Shown piece by piece: positions 21,358 through 23,901 of a DNA stretch of 64,000 nucleotides. The notes under the pieces were generated by a model. The model saw only the letters and a program-made list of their open reading frames with translations. It did not search any database and had not been told where the DNA came from. The position numbers and the translations under genes are program-made. Within the stretch, counting starts at the first letter, position 1; each line of letters begins with the position of its first letter. Source of the DNA: Bacteroidales bacterium. GTDB taxonomy: Bacteria; Bacteroidota; Bacteroidia; Bacteroidales; Bacteroidaceae. The DNA lies in assembly GCA_015060905.1 (NCBI GenBank), contig SUXQ01000015.1:1-64000 (forward strand), in the 5' to 3' direction.

Positions 21358-21852
21358 TTAGTTGATTTTGACTTCTGTATTTGCAGCTACAACTGCTTGT
21401 ACTTCAAAACCCGCTGGCATTACGGCCTTAGTTCCTGGAATGAAGATGCAAGGCCATACAAATAAAGCGGTAACAACTGCTAATGGTGTTCTATTTTTAC
21501 CATACAATCTTGCCGCTGTATTTGAGAAATAGATTTGCTCTCCTGATGGAAGAATCAAATTGCTGATGTTAATAACCAAACGCCCCTTAGTACCAGCAAT
21601 TGAACTTTTCTTTGCTTCATTAACTACTCCTTTTACTAATGTTCCTTTTGATATTGCAATACTATTATCTACAACAATATCACTAATAACTCGAAAATCA
21701 ATAGTTTCCCCTTCGTTAACATCAGCAGCTTTTACTCGTTTCACTGCTTGCAATGGCACTATGGTACCGGCTTTAATCGTTACACTCTTTTGAGCAATAG
21801 CAAATGAAATAGACATTGCCATACATATTAAAAAAGAAATTGTTTTTTTCAT
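21358..21852 (-). CDS. Exported protein of unknown function
   Basis: 164 residues from the ATG at 21852, which starts a clear signal peptide (MKKTISFLICMAMSISFAIA). The mature part is beta-rich: SVTIKAGTIVPLQAVKRVKA, then SIAISKGTLVKGVV and PSGEQIYFSNTAARLYGKN, with one hydrophobic stretch (TALFVWPCIFIPG). The repeated (V)KGT pattern resembles small beta-barrel proteins that handle envelope or conjugative roles, but I do not recognise a family. The gene is alone between two terminators, and a structured RNA candidate lies directly upstream. Confidence 0.75.
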   Translation of the reverse strand: MKKTISFLICMAMSISFAIAQKSVTIKAGTIVPLQAVKRVKAADVNEGETIDFRVISDIVVDNSIAISKGTLVKGVVNEAKKSSIAGTKGRLVINISNLILPSGEQIYFSNTAARLYGKNRTPLAVVTALFVWPCIFIPGTKAVMPAGFEVQAVVAANTEVKIN

Positions 21853-21915
21853 AATAATTTGAAATTTATAGTTAAACATTAAATAAATTACTTATCAAAG
21901 TCTTTTGCTTAACTA

Positions 21916-22104
21916 TAAAAAAAGAAAAGCGCAGACTCTCGTCATACGCAGTCTTGGCTCACCACAAGCCATAGTTCTATATGTGAAAGTCTGCACTGAA
22001 AGTGCTAACTCTCAATAGAACTATTATTTTGCTCGTTGTGTTCCGAGGTGGTGATTCAGACTGCCTTGAGCAAAAATCAAATGTCTTGCAATCGGTTGCC
22101 CGAT
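21916..22104 (-). ncRNA. Candidate structured RNA of about 190 nt, 6S-like
   Basis: Three nested stems stack into a rod: 21948-21954 with 22058-22064, 21959-21965 with 22048-22054, and 21971-21980 with 22015-22024 (7, 7 and 10 bp), capped by GCACT GAA AGTGC at 21993-22005. At the minus-strand 5' end, AATCGG GCAA CCGATT forms a tetraloop hairpin. A -7 box TATATTTG (22112-22119) sits just upstream, and the 3' end runs into GCGCTTTTCTTTTTTT. Size, rod shape with internal loops, and own promoter and terminator resemble 6S RNA, which mimics an open promoter to bind RNA polymerase. It could instead be the leader of the gene at 21852. Confidence 0.5.
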
Positions 22105-22111
22105 TACTTTG

Positions 22112-22119
22112 CAAATATA
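22112..22119 (-). promoter_or_regulatory. -7 box TATATTTG of the structured RNA candidate
   Basis: CAAATATA on the plus strand. Transcription would start near 22105, at the base of the first hairpin. Confidence 0.5.
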
Positions 22120-22230
22120 GGTGTTTTTTTCATTTTATAATATTTAGCTATAAGAATATTTTAGACATATTAAACATGCAAAATATTAGTTGAATACATA
22201 TTTTATTTAATACAAATAAATTATGTATCC

Positions 22231-22326
22231 GCAACGTGCGACCGAAATTATTCTTCCGCAACGCATGACCAACGGCTCTGCAATGTGCTCTATGGGAATA
22301 AAAAAAGGCGCCGAGAGGCTCCATTA
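22231..22326 (+). repeat. Tandem structured unit 1, 5'-truncated
   Basis: Carries the 3' half of the unit: CGCAACGCATGACC, then GGCTCTGCAATGTGCTCTAT and GGGAATAAAAAAA. It ends in a decayed terminator-like hairpin (GGCGCC GAGA GGCTCC, 22307-22322). The 5' block CCCATTGACC is missing. Confidence 0.65.
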
Positions 22327-22350
22327 AAATATTGTATATATTATTTATCG

Positions 22351-22452
22351 CCCATTGACCAACCTTTTGTAGCCTTTGGCAATCGCATCCCACGTGGCAC
22401 TAACTTCGTCAGTGCTACACGTGACCTAATGCTCAAAAGCTTGCTCTATAGT
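22351..22452 (+). repeat. Tandem structured unit 2
   Basis: Begins with the 36-base block CCCATTGACCAACC... (22351-22386), shared with unit 3 at one mismatch. It then forms the stem CACGTG-GCACT (22391-22401) with AGTGC-TA-CACGTG (22411-22423) and the 9-base loop AACTTCGTC. Its 3' part (GTGACCTAATGCTCAAAAGC) has diverged from the consensus. Confidence 0.7.
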
Positions 22453-22459
22453 CGTCCTT

Positions 22460-22595
22460 CCCATTGACCAACCTTTTGTTGCCTTTGGCAATCGCCACCC
22501 ACGCAGCTGCGAACTTTATCCGCAGCGCGTGACCTATGGCTCTGCAATGTGCTCTATGGGAGTAAAAAAATGGAGCCTTGCGGCTCCATTTTTTT
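22460..22595 (+). repeat. Tandem structured unit 3 with intact terminator
   Basis: The shared block (22460-22495) includes the hairpin TTGCC TTT GGCAA. The stem CACGC-A-GCTGCG (22500-22511) pairs with CGCAGCGCGTG (22521-22531) around the loop AACTTTATC. CCCAT at the start can close with ATGGG at 22556-22560. The terminator 22564-22595 follows directly. Stem bases differ from unit 2 on both sides but pairing is kept. Confidence 0.7.
22564..22595. terminator. Bidirectional terminator at the guaA 3' end
   Basis: AAAAAAATGGAGCC (22564-22577) pairs with GGCTCCATTTTTTT (22582-22595) around TTGC. It touches the guaA stop codon and also ends plus-strand unit 3. Confidence 0.88.
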
Positions 22596-23901
22596 ACTCC
22601 CATTCAATTGTGGAATTGGGTTTGGGTGACATATCGTAGCATACGCGGTTAACATTCTTAACCTCTTTAAGTATGCGGTCGGTAATTTTCATAAGGATGG
22701 GCCACTCGATAGGCTCTATGGTTGCTGTCATTGCGTCGATGGTGTTTACGGCGCGGATGATTACGGGCCAATCGTATGAGCGGGCATTGTCGCGTACACC
22801 TACTGACTTAAAGTCGGGCACTACTGTGAAGTACTGCCATACTTTTTTGTCGAGGCCTGCGAGGGCAAACTCTTCGCGGAGGATTGCGTCCGACTCGCGT
22901 ACAGCCTCCAGACGGTCGCGGGTGATTGCGCCGAGACAACGTACTCCAAGACCGGGGCCGGGGAACGGCTGACGATACACCATTTCGTAGGGGAGGCCAA
23001 GCTCGAGACCGCAAGCGCGTACCTCGTCCTTGAAAAGCTGACGAATAGGCTCTACAAGTTCAAACTGCATATCCTCGGGAAGACCGCCTACATTGTGGTG
23101 CGATTTTACCATTTTTGCAGTTTTTGTACCGCTCTCTACAATGTCGGGGTAGATTGTTCCCTGACCGAGGAAGTCAATGCCATCGAGTTTGCGTGCCTCC
23201 TCCTCGAATACGCGGATAAACTCGCCACCGATTATTTTACGTTTCTCCTCGGGGTCGGCAACATTTTCTAGCTTGCCGAGGAAACGGTCGGTAGCGTCTA
23301 CATATACAAGGTTGGCGCTAAGCTGGTTGCGGAACACCTCGACAACAGCCTCTGACTCGCCTTTGCGCATAAGTCCGTGATTAACGTGTACGCACACAAG
23401 ATTGTTGCCAATGGCTTTCAGTAAGAGGGCTGCAACAACAGAACTGTCCACACCTCCCGAGAGGGCGAGCAACACTTTTCTGTCACCCACCTGACGACGG
23501 ATAAGCTCTATCTGGTCGTTCACGAAATTTTTCATATTCCAGTTAGCCTCGGCCTTGCAAGTGTCGAATACGAATGATTTTACAGCCTCTTTTATAGCCT
23601 CTTCGTCGTCGGTAAACTGCGCAAGTTTCACCTCGCACTGTGCCTTATCGTGTCCGGCTGCCATTATGGGGAATCCCGCATTGTAAATTTCGGGGGCAAC
23701 ATCAATTTCAACACCATCAATGAAATTGTTAGGACCTCCGTTAATGATGATACCTTTTACATTAGGGAGAGCCTTAAGCTCTTCGGCGGTTATATCGTGG
23801 GGGTAAATTTCGCTATACACACCCAACGCACGAATGGCTCTGGCAAGTACGGTATTCTCGTGACTTCCCAAGTCCAAAATAACAATCATGTCCTGTTTCA
23901 T
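22594..23901 (-). CDS. guaA: GMP synthase with a degenerate glutaminase domain
   Basis: 435 residues, against about 510-525 for usual GuaA. The ATP pyrophosphatase part is intact: PP-loop LSGGVDSS (147-154), MVKSHHNVGGLPEDM, FPGPGLGVRCLG and the C-terminal dimer domain ending NSTIEWE. It aminates XMP to GMP in the cytoplasm. The N-terminal glutamine amidotransferase domain keeps its first strand-helix part (VILDLGSHENTVLARAIRAL) and its end (FVFDTCKAEANW), but at the nucleophile elbow FPIMAAGHDKAQ replaces the usual PVFGVCYGMQ, and about 75 residues with the His-Glu pair are gone. It therefore probably uses free ammonia or a partner glutaminase. Confidence 0.93.
   Translation of the reverse strand: MKQDMIVILDLGSHENTVLARAIRALGVYSEIYPHDITAEELKALPNVKGIIINGGPNNFIDGVEIDVAPEIYNAGFPIMAAGHDKAQCEVKLAQFTDDEEAIKEAVKSFVFDTCKAEANWNMKNFVNDQIELIRRQVGDRKVLLALSGGVDSSVVAALLLKAIGNNLVCVHVNHGLMRKGESEAVVEVFRNQLSANLVYVDATDRFLGKLENVADPEEKRKIIGGEFIRVFEEEARKLDGIDFLGQGTIYPDIVESGTKTAKMVKSHHNVGGLPEDMQFELVEPIRQLFKDEVRACGLELGLPYEMVYRQPFPGPGLGVRCLGAITRDRLEAVRESDAILREEFALAGLDKKVWQYFTVVPDFKSVGVRDNARSYDWPVIIRAVNTIDAMTATIEPIEWPILMKITDRILKEVKNVNRVCYDMSPKPNSTIEWE

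Follow-up and report, generated by a model that had tools for sequence, protein, structure and literature searches.

Introduction

The REP, REPIN and BIME repeats that go with RAYT (TnpA_REP) transposases are short imperfect intergenic palindromes with bulged stems. They lie 3′ of genes, occur singly or in clusters, are specific to a lineage and vary in number. According to a TnpA_REP survey, the subclass 2.6 members of Bacteroidetes have "atypical secondary structures", non-GTAG palindromes with copies elsewhere in the genome (PMC6006769). The CGTC REPs are palindromic and apparently without a dedicated transposase (PMC3733652). The PINSR repeat of the Prevotella intermedia/nigrescens group, as its description reports, is 188 bp long, has 177–184 copies and no terminal inverted repeats, and its source is left open (PMC4755523).

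The 3′ end of guaA is a known target of another kind of mobile DNA. In one survey, IMEs and CIMEs accrete there in tandem, with or without an integrase, as a target of tyrosine recombinases, and the rows listed include guaA elements in Trueperella, Brucella and Pseudomonas (PMC5704250).

Here, we examined hairpin units beside guaA in a window of 64,000 nt, the whole stretch of Bacteroidales DNA that was analysed. Like the REP-type repeats, they are short imperfect intergenic palindromes with bulged stems, lie 3′ of genes in many copies, single or clustered, and are lineage-specific and variable in number. They differ in being longer and tiered, in having no transposase bracketed by units and in missing the GT[AG]G or CGTC tag; neither GTAG/GTGG nor CGTC was present at the hairpin foot in the units printed with flanks and inspected. 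They resemble the Bacteroidetes atypical structures in phylum, in being non-GTAG palindromes and in having copies elsewhere (PMC6006769). The CGTC REPs share the apparent lack of a dedicated transposase but differ in tag and architecture (PMC3733652). PINSR is likewise a lineage-specific intergenic repeat of a Bacteroidales clade, and the units are set apart from it by its length and copy number (PMC4755523). The guaA site differs from the IME/CIME sites listed in their survey by being an array of uncultured Bacteroidaceae that additionally has hairpin units and a leader RNA candidate (PMC5704250). A limited literature search, including PMC5771137, found no description of this unit repeat.

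Results

Hairpin units next to guaA

Two units lie in tandem at the 3′ end of a gene that we take from its sequence to be guaA, encoding GMP synthase (Table 1). The first 36 bases of units 2 and 3 differ at 1 position by direct reading and repeat search, and the search returned a 44-nt direct repeat of 93% identity between the units starting at 22351 and 22460. The main stem of unit 2 (22391–22423) pairs CACGTG-GCACT with AGTGC-(TA)-CACGTG around the loop AACTTCGTC. That of unit 3 pairs CACGC-(A)-GCTGCG with CGCAGC-GCGTG around AACTTTATC. These arms are as an earlier sequence-only reading gave them, and the truncated third unit and the decayed hairpin after it, both reported there, are also present.

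That reading overlooked two further stems. A short one is compensated: unit 2 has GCAT/ATGC, unit 3 has GCCA/TGGC. An outer stem almost pairs in unit 2 (AACCTTTTG/CAAAAGCTT) and is broken in unit 3, whose 3′ arm belongs to another unit type seen paired at locus L019. Folded as DNA on both strands, the two units give z values of −2.3 to −5.7.

Table 1. Features in and around the guaA 3′ end of the window
Feature	Position	Strand	Basis or remark
Unit 1, truncated (3′ half of a unit)	22231–22292	+	22255–22306 90% identical to 22519–22570; 5′ half missing by inspection
Decayed copy of guaA-end-like sequence plus hairpin (22300–22325)	22293–22325	.	22300–22325 81% identical to 22565–22590
Complete unit 2, with outer stem, a small hairpin, the GCAT/ATGC pairing and a main stem with 2-nt 3′ bulge (22391–22423)	22351–22450	+	69.5 bits against model R1 (unit included in R1's own alignment)
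Unit 3, with main stem 22500–22531 and the GCCA/TGGC pairing; outer stem broken, its arms coming from two unit types	22460–22560	+	48.2 bits against model R1 (unit included in R1's own alignment)
Perfect inverted repeat overlapping the guaA stop codon	22556–22603	.	Repeat search
guaA (GMP synthase, presumed), 435 aa	22594–23901	−	ORF list; 92% identical protein in G372
Structured leader RNA candidate, U-run at end	21908–22112; core 21926–22074	−	Fold, covariation, model R2
173-aa ORF downstream of the leader	21358–21879	−	Similar ORFs behind the leader in L324, L327, L340

The hairpin after unit 3 had been called a strong terminator that would end a plus-strand RNA of 110–140 nt. Its two 22-bp arms are perfectly inverted around a 4-nt loop, and it has A- and T-runs. 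A consensus terminator scan of the window does not list it, so the name terminator comes from reading. Since it overlaps the guaA stop codon, it is simplest and best read as guaA's own bidirectional terminator rather than the end of that RNA, and we also read it, by homology with the core GAGTGGGARTAA that recurs beside cargo in relatives, as a putative part of an att-like core of guaA-end insertions. The decayed segment before unit 2 is probably a remnant of a tandem insertion, because its order of core, hairpin and unit matches the tandem arrays of relatives. The window retains only remnants of a guaA-end tandem array; no integrase and no cargo-bearing pair of cores was seen within it.

A tiered hairpin with covarying stems

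One unit is a tiered hairpin of about 80–105 nt. From 5′ to 3′, it consists of a variable outer arm, GCNA, CC, a 6-bp arm, a 5-bp arm and a loop of about 9 nt, then a 5-bp arm, a T-N bulge, a 6-bp arm, ACYWW, TNGC and the other outer arm. The junction is asymmetric with CC on one side and ACYWW on the other, and the 2-nt bulge lies on the 3′ side and begins with T in 98% of 133 distinct rows. The guaA-type units often carry a small hairpin between the outer arm and GCNA. The outer stem varies between copies and is mostly self-complementary, with ATTGAC/GTCGAT and TCGCAACC/GACCTATTGCT as recurrent ends. Integron attC sites have conserved RYYYAAC/GTTRRRY ends and lie near an integron integrase; the outer arms vary between copies by inspection and, so far as these arms go, an attC reading of the units is unsupported. 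At L034:1547-1638 and in a G003 copy, other palindromes are nested in the terminal loop of a unit whose main stem is intact.

Covariation was measured initially on 32 rows (A1), hand-picked from regex matches allowing G-T and barring A-C pairs, which would favour G-T. In the main stem, 97.4% of 352 cells are paired and 8 of 11 pairs have two-sided changes. The covariation score was reached by 0 of 500 shuffles, and two cruder measures, reached by 49 and 196 of 500, show no clear excess. A covariance model of 51 positions (R1) was built from 32 hand-picked cores. The further alignments, of units gathered with this pairing-based model, took 150 of 171 (A2), 94 of 94 (A4) and 150 of 181 (A5) matches; of these 394 rows, 393 passed the length filter, and the outer-stem analysis took 189 of the 276 that were still distinct with flanks.

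The additional stems also pair beyond expectation. For GCNA/TNGC, core position 5 is Watson–Crick in 219 of 239 distinct cores and the best of 1000 shuffles gave 170, while position 6 is so in 188 of 239 and the shuffles gave at most 179. Over 189 units, the outer-stem duplex has a mean energy of −15.4 kcal/mol in its native form, and swapping the partners gives −8.6 kcal/mol. The two units of the window, with −6.3 and −7.4 kcal/mol, are no better than swapped pairs.

A family spread through one genus

Homologues occur at unrelated loci with their arms pairing, as BLAST and the covariance model showed across genomes of the genus; the sequence-only reading had proposed such a search. With the unit region as query, BLAST picked up relatives in 35 of the 44 genomes available for the genus, the window's own counted. 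R1 has matches at E ≤ 0.01 in 43 of the 44, with 0–92 in each and 1224 in total, at most 135 candidates having been scored in any one genome. Six units belong to the window's genome: besides the two in the window, three stand in tandem at C15:172366-172606 and a single one is at C15:82613. Units are single or in tandem, with neighbours often about 100–130 bp apart. With genus-wide homologues and covariation above shuffles, a chance origin is unlikely.

Beyond the genus, the matches are few. A family sample of 201 genomes has R1 matches in 13 genomes of this genus and 3 weak single ones outside it, all in genus g30 with E of about 2–3e-5; these three share the same flanks, and in L096 the match is 3′ of an ORF. 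An order sample of 295 genomes has a match in one genome besides the window's own. Up to 29 and 20 candidates per genome were scored in these two samples, under stricter filters than in the genus search. In a pattern scan of named genomes, 87 of 89 stretches came from Bacteroidaceae or Bacteroidales MAGs, mostly of ruminant-gut-labelled samples. The other two, from HR30 and Streptomyces, are taken as chance, with L182 and L189 empty in an R1 search at E ≤ 0.001 that took 80 of the 89 stretches (L147–L226 and not L227–L235). BLAST of the units against phage and plasmid collections gave no match, nor did the leader described below, and a phage or plasmid origin is unsupported for both.

Other repeats were seen in the same genomes. 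Many dispersed units of G018 and G012 sit within short simple repeats (e.g. TTTTCAG, AACTCTC) that differ between the two (L236–L255). A second dispersed repeat (GTCATCTCGACGATTGAAATGAGGAGAGATCTC...GAGATCCCTCG...GATGACAG) lies in L266 at query positions about 800–906 and has several copies in G041, G022, G006, G003, G036 and G027.

Position between genes

Of 169 clusters, we set aside 70 that lay too close to a locus end and 3 that lacked flanking ORFs. The remaining 96 comprise 50 between tandem genes, 42 between convergent and 4 between divergent ones. In the tandem contexts, the median distance from the upstream gene's 3′ end to the cluster start is 58.5 bp, the boundary being set 20 bp outside the core, and the first unit is on the strand opposite to the upstream gene in 39 of 50. 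guaA, recognised by a sequence tag, is touched by 14 of the 96 flanked clusters and not by the other 82.

Presence and absence were compared at one site in five genomes read among the 44 searched. Between two genes that we named thioesterase and rubrerythrin by eye, a unit is present in G041, G022 and G003; G018 and G040 have the gene pair without one. The site fits insertion or loss with undefined exact ends, and the empty sites are too diverged to read a target-site duplication. Neither such a duplication nor an exact insertion end of the units was shown in the genomes compared. Scattered and tandem copies that vary in number, can be missing from a site and mostly lie on the strand opposite to the preceding gene behave like a mobile DNA palindrome.

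DNA palindrome or structured RNA

The sequence-only reading took the changed but paired arms as selection on RNA structure. Selection on pairing is strongly supported, whereas structured RNA is not. The 239 distinct cores contain 2629 pair cells. Of these, 2556 are Watson–Crick, and G-T (24) is as rare as A-C (26; p 0.89), so the excess of G-U over A-C expected of RNA helices is absent. In outer stems counted on 154 of the 189 units, the numbers are 95 and 94. An RNA from either strand would favour its own wobble, so equal counts argue against RNA and for a palindrome kept at the DNA level; it is chiefly on this ground that we depart from the RNA reading.

The neighbouring leader differs in this respect, with G-U 85 and A-C 42 over 1453 cells of a model-fitted alignment (Fisher p 0.026 against the unit cores) and 78 and 22 over 807 cells of a sequence-only alignment. 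This contrast is a statistical argument, and a modest one on the model-fitted alignment. The best reading is that the units are kept as a palindrome at the DNA level and not as structured RNA, and they may have an RNA role on top of this.

Other data on RNA are as follows. The RNA folds of the units are stable (z −2.1 to −5.2), and the minus strand folds better than the plus in all 4 units folded. A sigma-70 scan has no plus-strand site between 21855 and 22626, and Bacteroidetes promoters fall outside its model. The statement that no described family matches holds for Rfam, which has no match in the window at gathering score; in 22000–22700 the matches are weak, the best with E 0.055. A known Rfam RNA is unsupported for the units and for the leader, with nothing at threshold.

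Candidate mobilising enzymes

Y1 transposase genes, of RAYT or IS200 type, are found in 9 of 44 genomes by Pfam PF01797 (6 over the cut-off) and in 8 of 44 by a four-sequence profile, in 11 together. Among the 33 genomes without one, 14 still hold at least 20 units. Of 12 distinct Y1 loci, 3 have a unit on one side and 0 have units on both, so no bracketed transposase was found. In the one-sided loci (G006, G034, G022), the unit is 192–835 bp downstream of the Y1 gene. Nor was a transposase recognised by eye between neighbouring units among the ORFs of 20 unit regions.

Two statistics associate units with Y1 genes. A unit is near 3 of the 7 profile-hit loci, and copy number predicts about 0.31 (p 0.002, in a crude uniform model). 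Two of the three unit-bearing Y1 loci lie beside the same MATE-like gene and are not independent, and units favour gene 3′ ends anyway, so this proximity is weakened. The profile-positive genomes have a median of 45.5 units against 17.5 (p 0.008, uncorrected for kinship).

Four Y1 loci read closely have palindromes of other kinds. By the signatures in PMC6006769, L116 and L117 fit subclass 2.6 and carry NHLH, WQ and YIHNNP, and L119–L121 are close to subclass 2.4 with YIIENP instead of YIxNNP. The hairpins flanking L116 and L117 are of another kind than the units, and R1 finds no unit there. A RAYT as dedicated mobiliser is not established, with no bracketing, few Y1 genes and other palindromes at the Y1 loci, but it may still be one, given the units near three profile-hit loci and the higher counts in profile-positive genomes.

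The Y1 loci have features of their own. Two kinds of RAYT-like Y1 genes (L119–L121; L116 and L117) come with their own palindromes, and L119 and L120 have GTAGGGG/CCCCTAC-type repeats inside the reading frame. In 5 of the 7 profile-hit loci (L122–L125, L128), from different genomes, the RAYT-like gene is near the same MATE-transporter-like ORF by eye, and this neighbourhood is a conserved residence of the RAYT-like transposase gene.

Tandem cassettes at the guaA end

In several relatives, the guaA 3′ end carries tandem blocks, each being the core GAGTGGGARTAA, a hairpin, one or more units, cargo genes and two GACACCAG repeats, followed by the core again. Such cassettes with a repeated core occur in L045:1-9570, L043, L046, L050 and L054, mostly with the paired GACACCAG. 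L045 (G029) has cores at 418, 7370 and 9364, and its first block after guaA encodes a tyrosine recombinase (PF00589, E 3.4e-9) and a resolvase (PF00239, E 1.1e-30). It therefore has a tyrosine integrase and direct-repeat cores around cargo, as an integrative element at guaA does. This block has a unit at its guaA end (471–521) and none found at the other, core 7370. In the other guaA-end blocks read, no integrase was recognised by eye, and they resemble cis-mobilisable remnants of a kind already described (PMC5704250).

Six low-copy genomes (G010, G019, G026, G035, G039, G042) have units at guaA or at its att-like copies, and some low-copy genomes carry units away from guaA. A probable transfer is seen in G372, of another family (f29). 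Its sole guaA found has a protein 92% identical to the window's and DNA 76% identical, and units follow it. One of these units is 97% identical over 115 bp to that of G026 and 91% over 105 bp to the window's. The contig (L306 / L314, G372:C52) has a GC content of 32–33%, and units and leader adjoin guaA. In two other genomes of the same genus, the loci are also AT-rich (34–35% GC), which makes a stray contig unlikely. Most simply, the unit probably moved between families with a guaA insertion.

A leader RNA candidate next door

About 120 bases from the units and on the opposite strand lies a leader candidate. Its fold has an MFE of −75 kcal/mol and a z of −7.4, matched by 0 of 200 shuffles. 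In a first alignment, two-sided changes occur in 24 of 61 pairs; the covariation score was reached by 0 of 500 shuffles and the number of further pair types by 40 of 500. A model (R2) was made from 14 regex-picked sequences and an alignment (A9) fitted to it. In 46 distinct model-aligned rows, 23 of 32 pairs have two-sided changes and each measure was reached by 0 of 500 shuffles. The window's leader scores 163.8 bits against R2, whose own alignment includes it.

R2 has matches in 20 of the 44 genomes from the genus. In the order sample, 15 of 393 genomes match, and together with the window's own genus they represent 10 genera. The homologues lie in guaA cassettes and elsewhere, upstream of different ORFs. 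By script, 40 of 47 leader loci have a same-strand ATG ORF of at least 60 aa at 103–227 nt after the motif ATCACCAC, and 34 of the 40 begin at 165–227 nt. The six at 103–115 nt lie within the leader core and are unlikely to be true starts. In the other 7 loci, an ORF comes only at 291–682 nt in 3, none in 1, and the motif is missing in 3. L323 and L337 contain one and the same leader.

The downstream ORFs look unrelated by eye. The window's, of 173 aa, has only a sub-threshold Pfam match (Transposon_TraM, E 0.007). Outside the genus, L346 and L360 have the leader with an ORF that reads by eye like a tyrosine recombinase, and no unit was found at leader loci there except in G372's.

Upstream of the leader, a conserved TAnnTTTGC presumably fits the Bacteroidetes promoter. 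A GCAGACU segment has two pairing options, either in the rod or with AGUCUGC ahead of the U-run. The alternative pairing together with the promoter fit suggests an attenuator. The element is likely a true structured RNA; it has no match in Rfam, and the phage and plasmid searches were empty too.

Discussion

We consider it probable that the units form a REP-like family of DNA palindromes, mobile but non-autonomous, at the level of the genus and partly borne by cassettes at guaA. Their conserved structure under changing sequence, strand-symmetric and near-wobble-free pairing, dispersed and tandem copies, variable copy number, presence or absence at an orthologous site and avoidance of divergent regions lead to this reading. 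Membership in RAYT-REP proper fails for the tag and the bracketed transposase, but the units still work like a REP. We would class them as orphan REP-like palindromes, a family whose architecture is its own.

How they move can be outlined conditionally. The unit hairpin would be recognised as single-stranded DNA by a hairpin-binding HUH/Y1-like nuclease or transposase, as we infer, and the bulged T is one that we take to resemble the extrahelical T of IS608 ends. The enzyme could act in trans, have since been lost or have gone unrecognised. The guaA copies would ride in tandem integrative cassettes inserting at the guaA 3′ end, and these cassettes would be the probable route of the unit into another bacterial family. 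An effect of the units on guaA expression is unproven.

Three other explanations were weighed. That the unit is a small RNA or a 3′-UTR element made from one strand would account for the strong compensatory changes and the stable folds, and the strand bias, like the location close behind gene 3′ ends, might point to it. Yet there is no wobble excess on either strand, as there is in the leader, the scan gave no plus-strand promoter in a consensus that does not cover Bacteroidetes promoters, and the range of copy number and the empty sites suit a repeat better, so we hold it to be very improbable. It is also improbable that the units are MITEs, deleted DDE-type transposons moved by an IS in trans with the outer stem as terminal inverted repeat. 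The copies are dispersed and the outer stems often end in ATTGAC...GTCGAT, like imperfect inverted ends. A DDE enzyme needs constant element ends, however, and here the outer stem varies between copies and the conserved part is the inside; no target-site duplication was seen, and none of the ORFs in the 20 unit regions was recognised by eye as a transposase.

Rather doubtful, in our view, is that the unit was originally a functional part of the attachment region of the guaA element and that the dispersed copies are escapees. It would explain why units follow the core and hairpin both at guaA and in tandem cassettes, and the six low-copy genomes and the probable transfer at guaA to another family agree with it. 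Against it stand the large majority of flanked clusters away from guaA, the copies elsewhere in some low-copy genomes, and the integrase block of L045, where no unit was found at the far core. The mobile REP-like palindrome remains our preferred reading.

More tentatively, guaA might be the dock of a gene-capture array, in which tyrosine-recombinase cassettes with the hairpin at the guaA-side end carry cargo behind a common, hitherto undescribed switching leader RNA; we regard this as possible though not the likelier case. If true, the leader would switch between a long rod and an intrinsic terminator, regulating any captured gene across many Bacteroidales families, and the hairpin repeats would spread as parasites or serve as recombination aids. 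The leader is in any case a candidate new regulatory RNA ahead of unrelated cargo genes.

In summary, compensated stems are usually taken as proof of RNA and here seem due to a mobile DNA palindrome. The balance of G-T and A-C separates this palindrome from a likely true RNA about 120 bases off. The units offer a tractable case of an orphan REP-like family, since 44 related genomes have 0–92 copies each, one site is known both filled and empty, and a unit has probably passed from one family to another.
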